A stretch of 29,568 nt of DNA. Origin: a virus. Both the position numbers and the translations under genes were made by a program. This document shows, piece by piece, positions 3,169 to 28,795 of the stretch (within the stretch, counting starts at the first letter, position 1; each line of letters begins with the position of its first letter). The DNA lies in the IMG/VR virus record IMGVR_UViG_3300024520_000362, positions 1 through 29,568 of that record, one strand, 5' to 3'. The notes below the pieces were generated by a model. The model was not told the origin of the DNA. It did no database searches and saw nothing but the letters and a program-made list of their open reading frames with translations.

Positions 3169-5121
3169 ATGCCCGCTGTAGTTGGAAACGGAACGATGAT
3201 CATCGCCGAGCCGCGCGCCGCGGCAGGTGATGGCCCCGGTAACGGAGTCTTTCATCTCCTAGACGAGAACAATGGAAACATTGGCTCGTTTGGGGTAACA
3301 GACCTCAACGAATCCTTCTGCAGCGGCGCATTTGACTCTGCTGGAAATGCTTACGTCTCTAGTGTCCTACCATCAACAGGTGTGATCTCTGTAGGTAAAT
3401 ACAATGCCGCAGGTGTTGAGCAGTGGCATGTAACTGTTGACACTGATGCAGTCTCTGCCCTCGGTGACCGTGGCGGATACATCACAATCGTCCAAGATGT
3501 CTGCTACGTGTGGACGTCTGCTAACGAGATCCATCGACTCAACACTGCTACTGGTGCCAACAACGATGGTGCTGGCCCGTGGATTAGTTCTCCACGAGTT
3601 CCTCAGACTCGGGTGCCAAATCGCACAACTCATCGCGGCCGCCCCATCCTGGCCTCGTCAACAGCCAACCTCTACTTGCTTCAAGGCCGTAAGTCAGGAG
3701 CCTTCAGCGACCACAACTTCATGATCATTGACCGTAGCACAGGAGCAACTAAGCTCAACGTCTCGCTGTGGTCAACTAACATGGGTGGAGATGCCGACGA
3801 CTTCGAGTCATGGGGTCTGACGGTTGATGAGAATGAGAACGTCTACGTTGCTTGGCATAGGAACGAAGATACTCCCATCCGTGAGACACGGATCAACAAA
3901 TACAATGTCGGCGGCACGCTACAATACAGCAAGAACCACGACTCTCTCCTGTCAGCAGTCGGGGCAATTTGGTATGACCCCTCATCTTCCACACTGTTTG
4001 CCAGCCTGAACCCCGCCCAAGTTGATACTATCAACATTACTAATGGCAATATCATTTCAACATCTGCTTCAACGGGTCGAGGTAATAGTCTTACTTGGCT
4101 AGTCACGCTACCTCCGAGTGTGGGTGACGACTTCATCTTTGCTGAGACAGGGATTACCGAGAAACCTATCTGGCGGCACGAGCGTGTTGATGTCAGCAAT
4201 AGTATTTGGGGAGGAACTGAACTTTCACTGACGGTGCAAGCGCAGCCCGTTGCTCAGATCTTTCACCAGTTTGATTGGACAAACGCACTCGCGGAGTTTG
4301 TGTCCGACACTTTGGCACTGTCACAAGTCATCGGCCTGAACGTCATCTACAACCGAACGGTTGTAGACACCCTAGCACTTACTGACTTGGTTGAGCGAAC
4401 CATCGGTGGCTCTGTTACCGATACTCTAGCCCTTAACGATGTTGTGGCATTAACTGTTGACCGGACTATTTCAGACACCCTAGCCTTGACTGACTTGGCT
4501 GCTGCCACCACAGGCCGGCCTCAGATAGTTACCGACACACTCAACCTCACAGACCTTGCTGAGGCTGAGGTCATCCTCTCGATCGTCGACGCGCTTAACC
4601 TAACACAAGTCATCGCTCGAAACGTAATCTATAACCGGGAGATCATTGACACCCTCAACCTAACCCAAGGCATCCTTCAGCTAGGGTTGGAGTTGTGTAG
4701 TGGTGAAGGGTTCACACCCGTCCCCGCTCTAGGCATCTCCCCGTTCGTCACGTTGACCTTCCCGTTCGTGGCACCGGCACTAACCGTTAACCTACGAGTT
4801 CCTGAGTTCGGCAACATCCACAGGCTTGACCTGGGCACGGTTGTCCGGCGGAACAGGGGTGGAGCCCTCAAGGCTTGCCGGCCTGTCACGTGGCCGATGG
4901 TTGAGGAACTCCAACTCACGTTTGAGAACCTTTCTGATGCACAGAAGATCGCTCTTGCAGCCTTCCTCATCACATCGGCTGGGTTGGAGATCGGGCTGTT
5001 GGATCACGAGAACCGTCAGTGGAAGGGTGTCATCATCACCCCAAGCAACAGCATCACTCACGCTAACCCTGGGTGCAGCTTTGAAACAGGCTTCACCTTC
5101 CGAGGCAAGCTCCAACCATGA
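3169..5121 (+). CDS. Repeat-bearing tail protein with beta-propeller-like N-terminus
   Basis: The 650-residue protein falls into three parts. Residues 1-350 are beta-rich with recurring VDENENVYVAW-like and DSAGNAYVSS-like strands, which resemble propeller or NHL-type repeats. Residues 379-502 hold seven copies of a DTLALTDL-type motif about 16-21 residues apart. Residues 539-650 form a compact domain that aligns with the next protein along its length. The layout suggests a tail-tip or fibre-like virion protein whose C-terminal domain docks on the tail. The ATG lies ten bases after the previous stop, with only a weak ribosome site (GAGTAG). Function is inferred from location and repeats. No enzymatic motif is evident. 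Confidence 0.65.
   Translation: MPAVVGNGTMIIAEPRAAAGDGPGNGVFHLLDENNGNIGSFGVTDLNESFCSGAFDSAGNAYVSSVLPSTGVISVGKYNAAGVEQWHVTVDTDAVSALGDRGGYITIVQDVCYVWTSANEIHRLNTATGANNDGAGPWISSPRVPQTRVPNRTTHRGRPILASSTANLYLLQGRKSGAFSDHNFMIIDRSTGATKLNVSLWSTNMGGDADDFESWGLTVDENENVYVAWHRNEDTPIRETRINKYNVGGTLQYSKNHDSLLSAVGAIWYDPSSSTLFASLNPAQVDTINITNGNIISTSASTGRGNSLTWLVTLPPSVGDDFIFAETGITEKPIWRHERVDVSNSIWGGTELSLTVQAQPVAQIFHQFDWTNALAEFVSDTLALSQVIGLNVIYNRTVVDTLALTDLVERTIGGSVTDTLALNDVVALTVDRTISDTLALTDLAAATTGRPQIVTDTLNLTDLAEAEVILSIVDALNLTQVIARNVIYNREIIDTLNLTQGILQLGLELCSGEGFTPVPALGISPFVTLTFPFVAPALTVNLRVPEFGNIHRLDLGTVVRRNRGGALKACRPVTWPMVEELQLTFENLSDAQKIALAAFLITSAGLEIGLLDHENRQWKGVIITPSNSITHANPGCSFETGFTFRGKLQP
4303..4672 (+). 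repeat. Seven-copy DTLALTDL protein repeat coding region
   Basis: The translated product of this segment contains DTLALSQ, DTLALTDL, DTLALND, DTLALTDL, DTLNLTDL, VDALNLTQ and DTLNLTQ at residues about 380, 400, 418, 436, 456, 473 and 494. The first and last repeats also share a longer block with NVIYNR before the Asp. At DNA level the copies have drifted in third codon positions, so the array is old or held by selection on protein. Confidence 0.8.
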
Positions 5122-10955: not shown

Positions 10956-11143
10956 AGTTTCCTTCCAACGGTCCACGCCCCAGCCGTATCAATGACTTCT
11001 AGGCCGCCATGGTAATAGATGTTAACGCCGACAAAGGTGTCAGCCTGTAATACAACCTGGTCACTAGAGCCTTGTTCGAAAGCGAACTGGAGTCTAGCAC
11101 GTTGTCTGTCTGAGATGCGTAGTAAGGCTTCCTTAACCTTCAC
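10952..11143 (-). CDS. Small hypothetical protein between primase and kinase
   Basis: The frame gives 63 residues starting with GTG (MKVKEALLRIS...) and ends in an ATGA overlap with the kinase gene. Its start overlaps the primase stop by 11 bases. No clear ribosome site precedes the GTG. The C-terminal half has short alternating beta-like segments (FVGVNIYYHGG, VIDTAGAWTVG), so it may be a small beta-rich fold. I recognise no family. The tight overlaps on both sides are the main evidence that it is real. Confidence 0.55.
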   Translation of the reverse strand: MKVKEALLRISDRQRARLQFAFEQGSSDQVVLQADTFVGVNIYYHGGLEVIDTAGAWTVGRKL

Positions 11144-13832
11144 GTTGAGGCACCAGACGGATACCCGCCAGCTTCAACCTAGGACCCTTTGACTTAGTCT
11201 CCGAGAAGGAGATATTGCCGATGTGTCGGGTTGAAGACCCGTGAGGGTTTCCGCAAGGGAAGTGGGGAGGCATCTTCTTTGAGACTCTAATCTTAGACCA
11301 GAAGTCTGCTTCGGTGGGGTCTACCCAGTCTTGGAAGTGCATCCAGAACGTGCCGAAGGGAATGGTTTCACCCGGCACGTCGTAACACATATCCTCCAGG
11401 AACCGTTGCAACGCGTCTTGGTTGCTCCGCTGTAGAGCCAGCTTCTCGCTGGTCTCGATGATCGGAACGTTGAGACGATCGTTCGACGGTGGCAGGTCTA
11501 GGTTCAGGATGTGCTCCAAGAAGAACGGAGCCTCCTTCCGTAGAAGCTGCATCAACTGCTCTTTAGGGATCATGTTCTGAGGCTCTAGGGCTGGAACATG
11601 AACCATCGTGATACGTGAGTCCCCGTCGAAGATCGGCGCTGCGTCGTGCTCGTTTGCACAGTGAACGTAGTGACCGGTATTGACGACTTCGTAAGGTGTG
11701 CAGTTCTTACGGTGGATGCTGATCATAAGACTAGTTACCCAGTCCTTAATCTTGTTGTAAGCCTGACGATCGTTCTTGAAGTGGGCTTCCTCAATGACAC
11801 ACAGGATGCCACCCTCAAGCTCAGCGTTGAACTTCTCACCCTTACGTAGGGCGTTGTCAGCACGTCGAACACCTCGTGTCATCAGCAGGCCCAACGCCTC
11901 GTGAAGGATTGACTTACCTGCGTTCTGACTTCCGTAGAGGAAGAGGTAAGGCAACTGCTTCGTGGGGTGTTGGAACATCGACGCAATCCACAACAGCAAG
12001 TAGTCTTCACCTGACTTAATGTCGTTCGCTTTGAACCACCAGTTGTCAGGCTCAACCAAAGCATCGTCAAGTCCACTACCAATGTGGGCCAGGACCTTTC
12101 TCCAGCTTGGGAAGTCTCCAGGCTCTTCACTCGGGAGGAAGGCAAGCTGAGCCGCATCCCGATTCCACTTACGGTCGCCGGGGTATTCCGGTTGGAACGG
12201 CTCGTTGACCAGAGTCCATGGGCGGAAGATGTTCGACCCAATGATGGGCTCGATCTCCTTTGCAGGATAACCCATAGCCTTAAGAGCCGGCTTGATATGG
12301 GCTAGGGGTTCACAAGCCCAACGACTCTCAACCCGCACGACCCAACCTGCGTCATCACCTTTTGGCGTCGTGACGTGTCGAAGCATGTCATCGTGAATTC
12401 CGGCGTCAACCTCTTGTTGGTTGTTCTTCGCCTGCACCTGGAAGATGCGCTTCCACACCTTCTTCTCTTGGAGCCACCCACGCATGTCGCCACTAGGGTC
12501 GTGCTGAGTGTGTTCAATCTCAAAGATGAGTCGACCGTCTTTGTGCTGACGCAAGACAGCAGGACGGATACCTGCCCACCCAGGAACACTGATGTTGGCT
12601 CCCAGTAGGTTGGCAGCCTTCTCAGCTATTTCTGCACTGCGAAAGACGTAACCGCCCTTCTCGTTTTCGATGGCGCCGAGTGAGCGGGCTGCTGTCTGGA
12701 GGTCAGGGTCGCGGTTCAGGTAACAACGTGTCCACCCAGCCCCATCCTGATCCCAGGTGTCACTCTCGTTCACTCCAGGACTGAACCGACGAACGACCCA
12801 AGCACCCCGACGCATCGGGAATAGAAAGCAGTTGTGGTCGTTCGGGGCTTCAGTGCCCTTACTCATCGTGTCGTAGACACCGATAAGATTCAAAGCATCG
12901 TGGGCCTTATGGAGATGGTGCGTGTGGGTCACCAACATGTGGTGGTCAGAGTCCCACCAGGCTTGCGCATCGTTCTCACGCAACCACTCGATGAGTTGCT
13001 GGTGAGTCTTGTCAAGCCGGCACCTTGGGCGCTGACCCGTCATCTCGTCGAACAGTGCCTCCATGTCTGTAGGCTGGTTCTCGATGAATGCTGGCAGGTT
13101 CTTCTTCCGTGTGCCCTTGACCACCTTGACGTGATCCCGCCAGTTAGGCGGCACGTTGTCAAGAGTGACACCGGCTTTGATGAGTTCGAACCCATCATTA
13201 CCTATGCACTTACGGTGCCAGATCCACATGTTGCCACCGCAGATGTCGACCTTCGAGCAGAAGTCGAACCCAGCCTCAGCACTCATGATGCCAAGGATCG
13301 CTCGCGCAAGTGCTGCATGTTCGTGGTGGTTGACAGTGGGGATGTCGTTCAGGAAGACGTAGAGGTGTAATCCCTTACCTCCACTACTCTTACGCACCGT
13401 CACCCAAGGGATGGCACAAGCAGTCTTCTGAACCTCAGCTAGTGTCTGCTCGTCAAGCTTCTTAGTGTGCTTGTCCGAGTGACCCACGATGCCGTCGAAG
13501 TCGAAGGCTACGAACTGGGATGTCTTCTCTTTGAAGTTCCATCCTGTGAGGCCGATCCCTTGAGCATGATGTTCTAGGGAGTAAGTCATCGGCAGGTGGC
13601 CGTTGTCTTCTGGCTCCGTCGATGCGTGTTTGGGTATACGGATGGGATACCACTTGCCTACACCATCAGTCCAAGTGCATCCTCTCCATCCTTTGTAGTC
13701 GCCGACACGGTCACCTCCATCCCTGGCGACGTTGACTTGGCACTCCATCTCTGCATCATACAGGTCGGCTAAGTCAGGCCGAGCTTTTGCATCAAGGAAT
13801 CTCTTGATGGCTGTTGAACGCGTTGGTTGCAT
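11133..13832 (-). CDS. AEP-type primase fused to SF3 helicase
   Basis: This 899-residue protein joins two replication enzymes. Residues about 30-210 carry archaeo-eukaryotic primase motifs: AFDFDG (residues 109-114) with the metal-binding acids, SSGGKGLHLYVF (149-160) with the catalytic His, and VDICGGNMW (195-203). Residues about 605-770 form a superfamily 3 helicase: Walker A GSQNAGKS (634-641), Walker B ILCVIEEAH (676-684), and a sensor stretch in GHYVHCANEHDA. The protein would prime DNA synthesis and unwind the fork. Its ATG follows an AGGAG site, and a 30-bp promoter element lies 25 bases before the start. It heads the leftward operon. A role as the main replication initiator is inferred. 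Confidence 0.85.
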   Translation of the reverse strand: MQPTRSTAIKRFLDAKARPDLADLYDAEMECQVNVARDGGDRVGDYKGWRGCTWTDGVGKWYPIRIPKHASTEPEDNGHLPMTYSLEHHAQGIGLTGWNFKEKTSQFVAFDFDGIVGHSDKHTKKLDEQTLAEVQKTACAIPWVTVRKSSGGKGLHLYVFLNDIPTVNHHEHAALARAILGIMSAEAGFDFCSKVDICGGNMWIWHRKCIGNDGFELIKAGVTLDNVPPNWRDHVKVVKGTRKKNLPAFIENQPTDMEALFDEMTGQRPRCRLDKTHQQLIEWLRENDAQAWWDSDHHMLVTHTHHLHKAHDALNLIGVYDTMSKGTEAPNDHNCFLFPMRRGAWVVRRFSPGVNESDTWDQDGAGWTRCYLNRDPDLQTAARSLGAIENEKGGYVFRSAEIAEKAANLLGANISVPGWAGIRPAVLRQHKDGRLIFEIEHTQHDPSGDMRGWLQEKKVWKRIFQVQAKNNQQEVDAGIHDDMLRHVTTPKGDDAGWVVRVESRWACEPLAHIKPALKAMGYPAKEIEPIIGSNIFRPWTLVNEPFQPEYPGDRKWNRDAAQLAFLPSEEPGDFPSWRKVLAHIGSGLDDALVEPDNWWFKANDIKSGEDYLLLWIASMFQHPTKQLPYLFLYGSQNAGKSILHEALGLLMTRGVRRADNALRKGEKFNAELEGGILCVIEEAHFKNDRQAYNKIKDWVTSLMISIHRKNCTPYEVVNTGHYVHCANEHDAAPIFDGDSRITMVHVPALEPQNMIPKEQLMQLLRKEAPFFLEHILNLDLPPSNDRLNVPIIETSEKLALQRSNQDALQRFLEDMCYDVPGETIPFGTFWMHFQDWVDPTEADFWSKIRVSKKMPPHFPCGNPHGSSTRHIGNISFSETKSKGPRLKLAGIRLVPQREG

Positions 13833-13856
13833 CGCATCTCCTGGTAGAATGTCTCG

Positions 13857-13886
13857 CCCTATACTACGGCAAAACTCGTGAAAATA
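13857..13886 (-). promoter_or_regulatory. Phage-type promoter element, leftward copy
   Basis: Read on the minus strand the element is TATTTT, eight free bases, then TTGCCGTAGTATAGGG. It matches the rightward copy at 14041-14070 in 23 of 30 positions, with both outer blocks identical. The final TATAGGG matches the usual start of transcripts made by T7-type polymerases. Predicted transcripts would begin at the GGG and give a leader of about 25-27 bases before the primase ATG, with AGGAG just before that ATG. Confidence 0.65.
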
Positions 13887-14040
13887 TGCCCAAATTATCT
13901 AACCCCTTGCCACATAAGGAGTTAGAGCATAATACCATATTACCACTGGCTTTGAAACTAGGAAAGAGAAAAGAAGAATGGAAAAGGTATAGAGAATAAT
14001 GGTGCTCAAATGCTCAAAAGGTTTTCTGAGAATTCGCTTT

Positions 14041-14070
14041 TATTTTTGGGCCCGTTGCCGTAGTATAGGG
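14041..14070 (+). promoter_or_regulatory. Phage-type promoter element, rightward copy
   Basis: On the plus strand this reads TATTTT, eight free bases, then TTGCCGTAGTATAGGG, with both blocks and their spacing identical to the leftward copy. It lies 84 bases before the chosen ATG of the ParB-like gene. Identity in two divergent places, each ahead of an operon, is strong evidence for a shared control element. It is not a good sigma70 promoter: the T-rich block and the TAGTAT block are only 14 bases apart. Confidence 0.65.
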
Positions 14071-14154
14071 TCCAGGGGAGGAGGCTGTAGGATGGGATGC
14101 AACCACCTAAGCCATCGACCCGGACTTTTAACAACCATCGAGGAGACAGCGTTA

Positions 14155-15147
14155 ATGTCAACCACCCAACTGCTTCACGTCCCCGTCAAGAACATCACCG
14201 AGCGTCAGGACAGTCTTCGCGGCTTCAACCCCGAGAACGACGAATACAAGATGGTCCGTGATTCCGTCGAGCGCCAGGGTGTCATCACGCCCATCAGCCT
14301 CGTTCTCGCCTTCATGCCGGACGGTCGCACGCCGAAGACTGACGGCGACAGCGGCGCCCAGATCTACATCTTGGTTGACGGTCTTCAGCGCACCAGCGCC
14401 TGCCGCGACCTCGGTATCGAGACGATCCCCGCCCAGGTTCTCCAAAAGAGCGACGCGGATATTCTCTCCGTTCAGCTGATGGCGAACGCCAACCGCGTCA
14501 AGACCAAGCCTTCCGAGTTCACCGCCCACATCTGCCGGATCCTGGCGGCTGACCCCACCCTGACGAAGATCGAGTTGGCGGCCAACTTGTGCGTCTCGGT
14601 GTCCTTCATCGAGAACCGTCTGAGCCTCGGCTCGGTCGACGCTGACGTGGCGAAGCTGATCGACGCCGGCGACATCGTTCTGACGAACGCCTACGAGCTG
14701 GCCAAGCTCAAGCCCGAGGAGCAGCCCGACTACGCTCAGGCCGCCATGGACGACGCGCCGGCCATCTTCAAGGTCAACGTGCAGAAGCGTCTCAAGGAGA
14801 TCCGGGATGCCAAGCGTGCGGGTCGTGATCCGAACGCCGTGCCCACCTTCGAGGCCGTCCCGCACATGCGGAACCTCGGGGAGTTGAAGACCGCCTTCGA
14901 CGATGGCGAGATGGGCATGGTCGAGGACTTCGTGACCGAGGCGGGTCTGGCTGACGATGGCGTCGGTGCCGGCAAGGCGATCCTCAAGTGGGTTCTCCGG
15001 ATGGACGACGAGTCCGTGGCGCACTACCGCGCCGAGTGGGAGGCTCGCCAGGCGAAGGCCAAGGCCGGCAAGGAGGAGCGTGCGAAGGAGCGTGCTCTCA
15101 AGCGGGCTGAGGAAGCCAACGCGGCTGTCGCTGGCCTCACTAGCTAG
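14155..15147 (+). CDS. Divergent ParB-like DNA-binding protein (first of two)
   Basis: I choose the ATG at 14155, giving 330 residues (MSTTQLLHVPVKN...), with GAGGAG nine bases upstream. The N-terminal ParB/Srx-like domain has an altered box II, VDGLQRTSA (residues 74-82), followed by NANRVKTKPSEF where ParB has its next motif. A helix-turn-helix-like stretch follows near residues 138-160. The C-terminal 40 residues are Ala-, Lys- and Glu-rich and likely helical. An in-frame ATG at 14092 has a stronger ribosome site, but the codons between the two do not match the GC-rich third positions of the gene. It may act in partition, replication control or as a regulator. The family is clear, the role is not. 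Confidence 0.7.
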   Translation: MSTTQLLHVPVKNITERQDSLRGFNPENDEYKMVRDSVERQGVITPISLVLAFMPDGRTPKTDGDSGAQIYILVDGLQRTSACRDLGIETIPAQVLQKSDADILSVQLMANANRVKTKPSEFTAHICRILAADPTLTKIELAANLCVSVSFIENRLSLGSVDADVAKLIDAGDIVLTNAYELAKLKPEEQPDYAQAAMDDAPAIFKVNVQKRLKEIRDAKRAGRDPNAVPTFEAVPHMRNLGELKTAFDDGEMGMVEDFVTEAGLADDGVGAGKAILKWVLRMDDESVAHYRAEWEARQAKAKAGKEERAKERALKRAEEANAAVAGLTS

Positions 15148-15180: not shown

Positions 15181-15292
15181 ACCAGGGGTTAGGTGTGACG
15201 GCTCGGAAAGACGAGCACTTGCCACTGAGGCCCTTGGCGGGCAAGGTTGGTCTAACCAACTAGAGTATGAGGTTCGAATCCTCACCTTGGCG
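15181..15292 (+). ncRNA. tRNA-like RNA element, incomplete or unusual
   Basis: The 3' half matches a tRNA: a perfect T-arm (TGAGG, loop TTCGAAT, CCTCA, at 15268-15284) followed by seven acceptor-like bases CCTTGGC and a G at 15292. The 5' half does not give a standard cloverleaf. ACCAGGG at 15181-15187 can pair with the acceptor strand at six of seven positions. GCTC/GAGC with an eight-base loop (15201-15216) resembles a D-arm. CTTGCC/GGCAAG form a stem but enclose a 16-base loop instead of an anticodon stem-loop. GTTGG/CCAAC could be a long variable arm. Alternatively GGCAAGG (15240-15246) pairs with the acceptor strand with one mismatch. It could be a degenerate tRNA, a tRNA mimic, or a remnant of a host tRNA. 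I cannot assign an anticodon. Confidence 0.35.
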
Positions 15293-15312
15293 TTTCTATT
15301 TTCTATTTTCTA
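15293..15312 (+). repeat. Seven-base pyrimidine repeat
   Basis: TTTCTAT occurs twice in tandem followed by TTTCTA, directly after the tRNA-like element. The T-rich run could help end transcription of that RNA. AGGA follows it at 15312-15315 and may serve as ribosome site for the next gene. Confidence 0.55.
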
Positions 15313-20673: not shown

Positions 20674-21501
20674 ATGGAAACCCTCGGCAGTGTTCTCAAT
20701 CTGCCCATGACCGATATCTTTGTTGACGAAGAGTTCAACTGCCGAGGGCACATCGTCCCGGTCCACGTCTATGAGTTGGCGAAAGATATTCGGGAGCATG
20801 GGCTCCTTCAAAATATCGTCGTTCAGCCTTGGGACAAGGACGGTTTCAAATACCGTATTGTGTGCGGCCATCGTCGATACATGGCTTACCGTATCAACGA
20901 AGAGACGCACATCCCCGGCACCGTTAAGGAGGGCCTGACCGAAGAAGACGCGATGGCCATGAACCTCTCGGAAAACCTTTGCCGGGAGGATCTCAACCTA
21001 CTCCAAGAGGCAAAGGCCATCGAGAAGTTCATTAACTTCGGGTGGTCGACGAAGCGTATCTGCAAGAAGCTGTCCGTCAGCGAGATGTGGTTGCGTGCTC
21101 GGACGGCTCTACTCCAACTGGAGCCGGAGATCCAGAAGCGTGCTGAGGCTGGGTTGCTGACGCAGCACCAGATCATGGACATCAGTCGGATGCCCACAGC
21201 AAAGGACAGGATGGCTGCCACTCAGAAGGCTGTCAACCACAAGCTGGCAGGCGAGCGTAAGTCCCTGAAGCTGAAGGAGTCCAAGAGCGTCTTCACCAAG
21301 AAGCCTCGTGCAGTGGAAGAGATCCACGAGATGCAGGGGTTGGTTGCCGATGTCTTGGGTAACGGCCTGACGACACGTTTCGCAGCATGGGCAGCAGGAG
21401 TCATCTCGGATCGGGATTTCCACAAGGACATCCGCAAGGCTGCTGACTCAAGAGGCATCTCCTGGGAGTTGCCGATGGCGGTCGCTCCGCCCAGTGCCTG
21501 A
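20674..21501 (+). CDS. ParB-like protein (second of two)
   Basis: This 275-residue protein has canonical ParB motifs: box I region FNCRG near residue 22-25, box II CGHRRYMA (64-71), and box III SENLCRED (99-106), all of which form the nucleotide-binding pocket in ParB. A helix-turn-helix-like stretch follows (FGWSTKRICKKLSVSEMWL, 122-140). It would bind CTP and a specific DNA site. There is no ParA nearby. Unlike the first ParB-like gene, its box II is unaltered. Phage ParB homologues can act in partition, transcription or host take-over, and this one sits directly upstream of the polymerase block. Confidence 0.8.
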   Translation: METLGSVLNLPMTDIFVDEEFNCRGHIVPVHVYELAKDIREHGLLQNIVVQPWDKDGFKYRIVCGHRRYMAYRINEETHIPGTVKEGLTEEDAMAMNLSENLCREDLNLLQEAKAIEKFINFGWSTKRICKKLSVSEMWLRARTALLQLEPEIQKRAEAGLLTQHQIMDISRMPTAKDRMAATQKAVNHKLAGERKSLKLKESKSVFTKKPRAVEEIHEMQGLVADVLGNGLTTRFAAWAAGVISDRDFHKDIRKAADSRGISWELPMAVAPPSA

Positions 21502-25595: not shown

Positions 25596-27523
25596 ACTAC
25601 GCAAAGAAACTTGACGCATCGTTCGTGCGTCGCTACGTATTGGCTGAGGTCCCTTGGGGACCTATTGGCTATGTGACCTACAAGCGCACATACGCCAGGC
25701 CCATCGAGGGGTCGGACCGGGTCGAAGAGTGGTGGGAGACCTGCTCCAGGATGGTGCACGGGCTGCTGGACCAGGGTCTAGCGGTCAGCCAAGAAGAGGC
25801 CGAGCAACTCTACCACTACTTCTTCAACCTCAAGATGCTTACGGGTGGTCGGGGTATCTGGCAACTCGGCACCAAGAACATCGAGACCATCGGTGCTGAC
25901 AGCCTCCAGAACTGCTGGCATGTCACGTGTCATCGGCTCAAGTCGTTCTTGTTTGCCTTCAACCAACTCATGTTGGGTGGTGGCGTCGGCTTCAGCATTC
26001 AGGCTGAGCACATCTACAAGCTGCCTCCGGTGCGCTTCAAGCCTACGGTCAAGCGTGTCGACTCGTGGGATTGTGACCACATCGTCACTGACAATCGTGA
26101 GGGCTGGGTTGCTCTGCTCGGCAAGGTGTTCGAAGCCTTCTTTGACACTGGCAAGGACTTCTCGTATTGCACGCGTGCAGTGCGCGGACGTGGGACGGCT
26201 ATCAACGGTTTCGGCGGGACTGCTTCAGGTCCTGAGATTCTGGTCAAGGGCATCAAGCAGATCGTCAAGATCCTTACCCACGCCTTCGGTCGTCAGCTAA
26301 CGGATGTCGAGTGCCTCGATATCTACAACATTATCGGCTCCATCGTGGTGGCTGGTAACGTGCGACGTTCGGCTGAAATCGCCATTGGGGATTCGATGAG
26401 CATCGACTTCCTGAACGCCAAGAAGTGGGAGTTGGGCAACGTGCCAAACTGGCGGACGATGTCGAACAATACCGTTGCTGAGACGATGTTCGAGCGCCTG
26501 TCAGATTTGTTCTGGGGCAACTACAATGGTGATGGGGAACCTGTTGGTCTCTGTAACCTCAACGTCGCCCGAAACTACGGCCGTCTCGTCGATGGCAAGG
26601 GCTACCGTCTAGACCCTAGGGTCAAGGGAACAAACCCCTGTGGTGAGATCTTCCTCGAAGACGCGGAGTCGTGCAACCTGCTCGACATCTTCCTCCCCAA
26701 CGTCAACCGCTCCGAACTGTTCACGGCAGCGAACCTGGCACTTAAGGTTGGAAAGACCATCTCGTTGGTGCCGCACTCTGATCCTGATACCCAGGCTGTT
26801 GTGGACCGGAATCACCGTATCGGTATCGGCGTCACGGGCTTTCAACAGGCGTTGCAGCATCGTGATCCCCGACTCTTCGATGCAGTCTACAAGAGCATTG
26901 AGTCGACGGACTCGTCATACTCAGCCCTGGTAGGGTGTGCGACGAGTATCAAGCTGACCACGGTCAAGCCGTCGGGCACCTTGTCCTGCTTGGCTGGAGT
27001 GACCTCTGGGATGCACGCTGCCAAGAGTCGTTACTACATCCGACGTATCAGGATGTCGGCTGACGATGACTTGATCCAGACGTGTCGGTCAGCGGGGTAT
27101 TGGGTCGAGCCTCTCCTGAACATGGACGGCACGCACAACTACGAGACGATGGTCGTCGAGTTCCCGTGCAAGACGCCTGAAGGCACGGTCATCGAAGACG
27201 AGATGACGGCCGTCGACCAGTTGGAGACGCAGCTTTGGTTGCAGACACACTGGGCCGACAACGCTGTCTCGTGCACCGTGTCCTACGACGAGGAGGAGTT
27301 GCCCGACATCAAGAAGTGGTTGTCCAAGAACTACAACGAGAAGGTCAAGTCCACATCCTTCCTCAAACGTTCGGGTGGTGGCTACAAGCAGTTGCCTTTC
27401 GAGGACATCGAGGAGTGGGAGTTCAAGCAGGCCATCTCCAAGATCAAGCCCTTGGGTAAGATCACTACGGGCGGCAGTATTACTGGGGTCGAATGCACCT
27501 CCGGGGTATGTCCAGTCAAATGA
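25592..27523 (+). CDS. nrdJ: Class II (adenosylcobalamin-dependent) ribonucleotide reductase
   Basis: This 643-residue protein has the class II signature NPCGEIFLEDAESCN (residues 348-362). Cys350 would carry the thiyl radical, Glu352 is the partner acid, Cys361 and Cys108 (SLQNCWH) form the redox pair, and the C-terminus CTSGVCPVK holds the two Cys that pass electrons. It uses adenosylcobalamin, not a metal-oxygen cofactor, so it works with or without oxygen, and depends on B12 in the host. It is about 100 residues shorter than the well-known Lactobacillus-type enzyme, mainly in the region after FLPN. The start is TTG in a TTGA overlap with the nuclease stop. It supplies dNTPs together with the kinase-like protein on the other arm. 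Confidence 0.9.
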   Translation: MNYAKKLDASFVRRYVLAEVPWGPIGYVTYKRTYARPIEGSDRVEEWWETCSRMVHGLLDQGLAVSQEEAEQLYHYFFNLKMLTGGRGIWQLGTKNIETIGADSLQNCWHVTCHRLKSFLFAFNQLMLGGGVGFSIQAEHIYKLPPVRFKPTVKRVDSWDCDHIVTDNREGWVALLGKVFEAFFDTGKDFSYCTRAVRGRGTAINGFGGTASGPEILVKGIKQIVKILTHAFGRQLTDVECLDIYNIIGSIVVAGNVRRSAEIAIGDSMSIDFLNAKKWELGNVPNWRTMSNNTVAETMFERLSDLFWGNYNGDGEPVGLCNLNVARNYGRLVDGKGYRLDPRVKGTNPCGEIFLEDAESCNLLDIFLPNVNRSELFTAANLALKVGKTISLVPHSDPDTQAVVDRNHRIGIGVTGFQQALQHRDPRLFDAVYKSIESTDSSYSALVGCATSIKLTTVKPSGTLSCLAGVTSGMHAAKSRYYIRRIRMSADDDLIQTCRSAGYWVEPLLNMDGTHNYETMVVEFPCKTPEGTVIEDEMTAVDQLETQLWLQTHWADNAVSCTVSYDEEELPDIKKWLSKNYNEKVKSTSFLKRSGGGYKQLPFEDIEEWEFKQAISKIKPLGKITTGGSITGVECTSGVCPVK

Positions 27524-28189: not shown

Positions 28190-28207
28190 GGGGTGGCCGC
28201 CTCAACT

Positions 28208-28795
28208 ATGAGAGTCCCGAAAGCTAGAGGACGAAGCATCGTCCATGATTTCAAAAACTTGCCGCCTGCTCTGACGCCTGAAGCGTTGGAGCAGGCGGTA
28301 GAGTCACATGATGTTGACGCCCTCATTCACGGGCACATGCGTCTGGCTCTACAAGTCATCGCTATCTACGGACAGAGCGATGACCTCATTGGTGCGGGCA
28401 TGTTTGGGTTGGTGTATGCTGTCAATCGCTGGCCTGAAGTGCGGCGAGACAACAACATCTCCCCTTACATTGTCACGATCATTCACTCCAAGATCCGCGA
28501 CCACCTAGACAATGACGATGTTGTTAGGATGCCGGGTCGAACACGTCGGCTGAAGAAAGCTGACCGGGTGAAGGTTGTTCACGATATCGATGTCGCCTGC
28601 AAGAACGGCGATGACCGCATTCACTTCAGGGAGATGATGTCCCTGGTTGTTAAGACCCCTCTAGAAAAGCGTATCGTCGAGCTACGTATGGAGGGGCATG
28701 GCGATGTTGAAATCGCCTACCGTCTAGGGTATACCCAGCCTCACATCGGCAACATCCGCAACCAACTCAAGAAACGATTCCTGGACCTACAATGA
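28208..28795 (+). CDS. Phage sigma-like transcription factor
   Basis: The protein has two regions of sigma70 type. On the longer numbering from the GTG at 28193, residues 41-110 (GHMRLALQVIAIYGQSDDLIGAGMFGLV in outline, then AVNRW and IHSKIRDHL) match sigma region 2, which binds core polymerase and melts the -10 box. Residues 157-200 (EKRIVELRMEGHGDVEIAYRLGYTQPHIG in outline) match region 4, a helix-turn-helix that reads -35 boxes. Region 3 is mostly missing. I choose ATG at 28208 because AAGGGG lies before it, though the spacing is long; GTG at 28193 is possible. It likely directs host polymerase to phage promoters. The paired promoter elements in the middle of the window are the best candidates. 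Confidence 0.7.
   Translation: MRVPKARGRSIVHDFKNLPPALTPEALEQAVESHDVDALIHGHMRLALQVIAIYGQSDDLIGAGMFGLVYAVNRWPEVRRDNNISPYIVTIIHSKIRDHLDNDDVVRMPGRTRRLKKADRVKVVHDIDVACKNGDDRIHFREMMSLVVKTPLEKRIVELRMEGHGDVEIAYRLGYTQPHIGNIRNQLKKRFLDLQ

Follow-up and report, generated by a model that had tools for sequence, protein, structure and literature searches.

The window analysed in this study comprises all 29,568 bases of the IMG/VR record IMGVR_UViG_3300024520_000362, which is probably a fragment of a phage genome, with the capsid/terminase part absent. Its replication genes form two divergent arms separated by a 322-nt intergenic region (Table 1; start codons follow the automatic assignment). The leftward arm encodes a primase-helicase (DUF5906), a dNMP kinase, and an exonuclease, and the rightward arm a ParB-like protein, an SNF2-like helicase, a second ParB-like protein, a family A DNA polymerase (PolA), a ribonucleotide reductase, and a sigma homologue. 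The sigma-like protein noticed in the preliminary description of this DNA is real: its family profile (A3) matches sigma-factor structures (best E 6.8e-19), the single-sequence match is weak, and its assignment as a phage sigma factor is firm at the family-profile level.

A tRNA gene with a CTA anticodon (15220-15293, plus strand; called Pyl by ARAGORN) lies directly 3' of the ParB-like gene and encodes a possible amber suppressor. The ParB-like gene stops at TAG, followed by 16 readthrough codons, and the exonuclease gene likewise, followed by 72; TAG stops occur in only two of the 24 genes. A derivation of this tRNA from the tRNA-Gln of relatives received no support from alignment. A second ARAGORN call, tRNA-Val at 26055-26149 (plus strand) within the ribonucleotide reductase gene, is probably false. 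One relative (L004) encodes a tmRNA (4089-4418, minus strand; tag ATPVRLAA) beside tRNA-Gln and tRNA-Glu.

Table 1. Features in and around the intergenic region and related genes of the window.
Feature	Position	Strand	Remarks
Element A, TATTTTCACGAGTTTTGCCGTAGTATAGGG	13857-13886	-	-10-like core and putative start region, toward primase gene
Element B, TATTTTTGGGCCCGTTGCCGTAGTATAGGG	14041-14070	+	Mirror copy, toward ParB-like gene
Ribosome-binding site of primase gene, AGGAG	13838-13842	-	Sequence
GGGGAGGAGG, ribosome-binding-site-like run downstream of element B	14075-14084	+	Sequence
GATGCAACCA, spanning primase start codon	13824-13833	-	Post hoc; 23 nt past GGG of element A
GATGCAACCA	14096-14105	+	Post hoc; 25 nt past GGG of element B
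Inner dyad CTAACCCCTTGCCACATAAGGAGTTAG	13899-13925		Sequence; resembles AAGTCCTT dyads of relatives, resemblance only
Alternative sigma-70-like promoter, TTCAAA-16-TATTAT, TG before -10	13929-13956	-	Predicted; toward primase
Primase-helicase gene (DUF5906)	11133-13832	-	Downstream of element A
ParB-like gene with HTH_ParB	14155-15147	+	Downstream of element B; in-frame alternative start at 14092
Second ParB-like gene	20674-21501		
Sigma-70-family protein gene	28193-28795	+	Last gene seen in rightward arm; no element copy in front

Mirrored elements in the intergenic region

Elements A and B are identical at 23 of 30 positions and share the 16-mer TTGCCGTAGTATAGGG exactly (13857-13872, minus strand; 14055-14070, plus strand). 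The preliminary description, which had reported two elements with identical internal spacing, this identity, and a perfect 16-base match, was exact on these points, and each element does point into one replication arm, A toward the primase and B toward the ParB-like, helicase, PolA, ribonucleotide reductase, and sigma genes. The pair is absent from the repeat-finder listing and was found by direct computation. With 16 nt, it is the longest separated inverted repeat of the intergenic region, a length reached in none of 2000 dinucleotide shuffles of that region (shuffle maximum 12); the maximum in the remaining 322-nt segments of the record is likewise 12. The match was thus rightly described as beyond chance for this region. 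Record-wide it is less remarkable, since one more 16-mer inverted pair exists, within genes, and its significance therefore comes from its location.

The elements contain a -10-like hexamer, TAGTAT or TATAGG, each matching TATAAT at four of six positions. A -35 sequence TTGACA was not found 16-18 nt upstream in the window's elements, and TATTTT occupies that place. Between the end of element A and the primase ATG lie 24 nt, which include AGGAG. The occurrence of GATGCAACCA after both elements looks, post hoc, as if the inverted duplication had formerly extended beyond the primase start codon. No known RNA family matched in the window.

No further copy of TTGCCGTAGTATAGGG with up to three mismatches exists elsewhere in the whole record (shuffles expect 0.12), which agrees with the earlier observation that there is no third close copy. 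A promoter class repeated genome-wide was rejected on this basis, and scanning of the record and its relatives showed largely no enrichment upstream of operons elsewhere. Beyond this region, the arm 16-mers of relatives occur mostly upstream of sigma, arm sequences were not found at structural genes of the relative records, and a weight-matrix scan of these records gave mostly coding noise. In IMG/VR, the exact 16-mer had a single match, within a MazG-like coding frame and judged to be chance, and the pattern TATTTT-N8-TTGCCGT-NNN-ATA had 18 matches, about the chance level, with none in contigs carrying homologues of window proteins. Of the new promoter class proposed previously, the outward elements are real and a related CGTAnTAT core recurs at the corresponding place in many relatives, but the genome-wide repetition finds no support. 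In one relative record (G017, the record of L026), a promoter-like direct repeat TAATTAAAAGTGTATTTTRCCGTCATATATTATAGAG lies immediately upstream of polA and close to the sigma region, at about 24007 and 28791, both on the minus strand in primase-forward orientation.

Conservation of the mirrored architecture among relatives

A primase search yielded 35 loci, the window and 34 relatives, and a primase profile search yielded 291 relatives in IMG/VR, from which 80 non-redundant phages, window included, were kept. Eight of 11 primase matches in genome bins fall in Planctomycetota or Pirellulales bins, and we infer that the host of the clade is probably a planctomycete. As of 2017, no Gemmata phage had been isolated (PMC5707555). 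The named phages found are only distant, with Casjensviridae-type primases of 25-32% identity across part of the protein, and an annotated phage collection contained no DNA similar to the window and no PolA relative.

Most relatives compared have the divergent primase/ParB-like arrangement in a broadly conserved local gene order, and the region adjoins the primase-helicase gene in all relatives. The inverted-repeat, motif, and k-mer tests reported here are exploratory and use overlapping data; several motifs were tried and p values are nominal. An inverted repeat scoring at least 32 was found upstream of the primase in 49 of the 80 phages, and one above the shuffle maximum in 62. By the same measure (at least 32), such repeats were found in 0/94 regions upstream of six other genes, 1/13 regions upstream of parB2, and 1/142 random stretches. 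Of the 54 phages with clear arms, 51 have a pair of arms that resemble each other more than the right arm resembles that of any other phage, and the arms thus change together while their sequence varies from phage to phage. Perfect arms range from 16 nt in the window to 47 nt in L025, where the repeat (about 735-843, with a 14-nt loop) lies immediately upstream of the primase; imperfect arms exceed 100 nt in L018 and L195. The inter-arm distance varies across phages from a few nucleotides to about 300, which speaks against a single hairpin as the common function. Judged from these comparisons, it is the architecture at the primase/ParB-like junction, not the sequence, that is conserved, and the region is best described as a mirrored, phage-specific control region.

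The -10-like core CGTA-N0-3-TAT faces outward 26 times and inward 7 times in the clade regions (nominal p = 0.001, several motifs tried), GCCGTA 11 times and once, and TGATTTGAT 35 and 15 times, respectively. The core is present in both arms of the window and of L009, L030, L129, L130, L155, and L171. In L033, with a primase about 37% identical, TATTT-N9-TTGCCGT is kept in both arms, and L167 has a mirrored GTGCCGTACTAT, with GTGCCGTACTATAGCATG (minus) and GTGCCGTACTATGTAGTGG (plus) between the ParB-like gene and the primase side. A second layer, nearer the genes, consists of TGATTTGATT, and GATTTGATT occurs in 31 of 79 regions (1.1 expected). In several relative genomes, these sites are almost confined to this region and the sigma upstream region, with G023 as an exception. 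A dyad TGATTTGATT...AATCAAATCA is also seen in the primase and ParB-like 5' leaders of relatives. The third layer is formed by central GTAAGTC/AAGTCCTT dyads, with CGTAAGTC counted 12 times against 0.9 expected in the k-mer enrichment of relatives.

TTGAC has no orientation bias in the relatives (33 versus 34), so that a -35 is no general feature. Scored with an E. coli sigma-70 matrix, the arms likewise did not favour the outward direction overall (59/108, p = 0.16), and a de novo EM motif search on the arms returned no single strong consensus. Some relatives do have textbook mirrored sigma-70 promoters, such as L031 with TTGACA-17-TATACT in both arms. TATAGGG, tried as a common start motif, was seen in 14 of 79 regions and favoured neither orientation. 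In L026 and L027, a -10-like sequence ends immediately before the primase ATG, which suggests a leaderless primase mRNA.

Relation of the control region to the sigma gene

Relatives of the sigma gene are present in 23 of the 35 records, window included. Additional arm or region sequence lies directly upstream of the sigma gene in G007, G009, G012, and G022. The sigma upstream sequence aligns with the control region above all shuffles in about half of 20 relatives, with seven clear alignments (L160, L016, L153, L035, L020, L156, and L169), and TGATTTGAT is found in 7 of 23 sigma upstream regions. At the corresponding positions ahead of the relatives' sigma genes, the CGTA..TAT core was not found. 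In the window, the sigma gene follows directly 3' of a 65-aa ORF; its transcription probably starts further upstream, and this would account for the lack of a third copy of the element. Because one-third to one-half of the tested sigma upstream regions share control-region motifs, the sigma factor appears more likely to be a target than the reader of the control region, contrary to the role suggested for it at first.

Discussion

Based on their position, orientation, and conservation, we propose that the two elements are probably the matched mirror-image -10/start cores of two divergent promoters driving both replication operons, each core comprising the -10-like hexamer (TAGTAT/TATAGG) and the transcription start. 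Element A would drive the primase operon leftward and element B the operon for the ParB-like protein, helicase, and DNA polymerase rightward. One phage-specific machinery would read both elements, switching on both replication arms together, and the need to be read by the same machinery would keep the elements alike. The likely reader is the host RNA polymerase with a sigma-70-family factor, aided or checked by a phage DNA-binding regulator, with the adjacent ParB-like protein as the leading candidate for that role. In some relatives, the phage sigma gene with its related control motifs may represent a later step of the cascade. Against this promoter-core reading stand the lack of a recognisable -35 and of an element copy at the window sigma gene.

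Given the second sigma-70-like promoter inside the region, the true promoter could instead lie there, with the 16-mer downstream of it as a leader element or an operator. The elements would then be paired operators or leader elements: a phage regulator, such as the ParB-like protein, would bind both copies in front of the two genes and repress or activate promoters starting further inside. We consider this alternative somewhat unlikely. The element would lie about 55-75 nt downstream of that predicted promoter, GTAAGTC-type and TGATTTGATT dyads recur in the relatives' region and upstream of sigma, the paired arms of L004 and L016 lie upstream of a -10-like sequence and not at it, and a ParB-like HTH gene adjoins the region. 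However, the element is asymmetric, its -10-like core faces outward clade-wide, and ribosome-binding sites follow it after 20-30 nt; purines occupy the position where transcription would be expected to begin.

A more far-reaching and unlikely possibility is that a bidirectional promoter and a replication start are united in one clade-wide mirror-image region, with arms actively kept identical and sigma as a relay. Gene conversion or template switching would then maintain the identity of the arms, and their sequence would drift along with a phage-coded reader. That the region is primarily a replication origin seems quite improbable; paired sites, bound by the primase-helicase or another initiator, would flank an AT-rich unwound core, and transcripts of the arms would prime replication. 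The primase-helicase gene adjoining in all relatives, the mirrored arms around an intergenic core, and the GTAAGTC-type dyads repeated in some relatives are consistent with such an origin. On the other hand, the window has no iteron array, only one 8-nt tandem pair, and thus lacks the direct-repeat initiator array of iteron-type origins; its GC skew at the region tracks the gene strand, giving no independent switch, and is uninformative about an origin. Single related elements also occur in front of sigma genes, a placement that fits transcriptional control better than an origin.

That the elements form a promoter class specific to the phage, with the phage sigma and the host core polymerase as its reader, seems to us very doubtful. 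A true sigma-70-family protein is encoded, with relatives in most records, the -10-like core stands without a -35, and G017 repeats an TTTTRCCGTCATATATTA element in front of polA and of a further gene, but the window copies are only two, with none before its sigma or tail genes, and the absence of the element from structural genes of the relatives makes the phage sigma less likely as the reader. The T7-type likeness suggested previously finds no support, with just two copies, no consensus of about 20 bp repeated genome-wide, and no single-subunit RNA polymerase among the window ORFs tested or in the 34 relatives, in a weak search whose control also gave none.

Paired similar sites, two divergent promoters (PR/PRM), and one regulator are known from the lambdoid operator OR, with sequences that differ between phages. 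The region described here resembles lambdoid control regions in its paired sites between divergent operons and its phage-specific sequence, with regulator binding being putative; it differs in that its arms are mirror copies between primase-helicase and ParB-like genes and in that no lysogeny repressor was recognised here. T4 gp55-type late promoters consist of a -10 only and are read by a phage sigma. The -10-like core lacking a -35 and the encoded phage sigma are shared with them, whereas the element was found only at the replication arms and not at late genes, in a window that lacks the capsid/terminase part. A divergent pair of sigma-70 promoters has the same outward orientation upstream of two divergent operons, except that no -35 is recognisable in the elements here. 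The Casjensviridae (Chi, BcepNazgul) have a primase distantly related to that of the window, and the BcepNazgul primase follows a small same-strand gene, with no adjacent divergent ParB-like gene, unlike here.

Short phage-specific sequences have also been described in mycobacteriophages. In Cluster K, SAS/ESAS lie just upstream of start codons; many genes carry them, their orientation is mostly the same, and the extended form (ESAS) includes 17-bp inverted repeats (PMC3203893). The elements in the window are similarly short, phage-specific, and near start codons, but are two mirrored copies at one locus. The 17-bp dyad repeats of Cluster O are present in more than 30 copies over the genome (PMC4351075); they share with our elements the short phage-specific repeat and an unsettled function, and differ from the two copies here in number.

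Overall, the region opens a way to study how transcription is controlled in a large clade of uncultured phages. The arms, alike within a phage and divergent between phages, offer a testable case in which control DNA and its reader co-evolve, and the motifs that the region has in common with sigma upstream regions predict a regulatory cascade.
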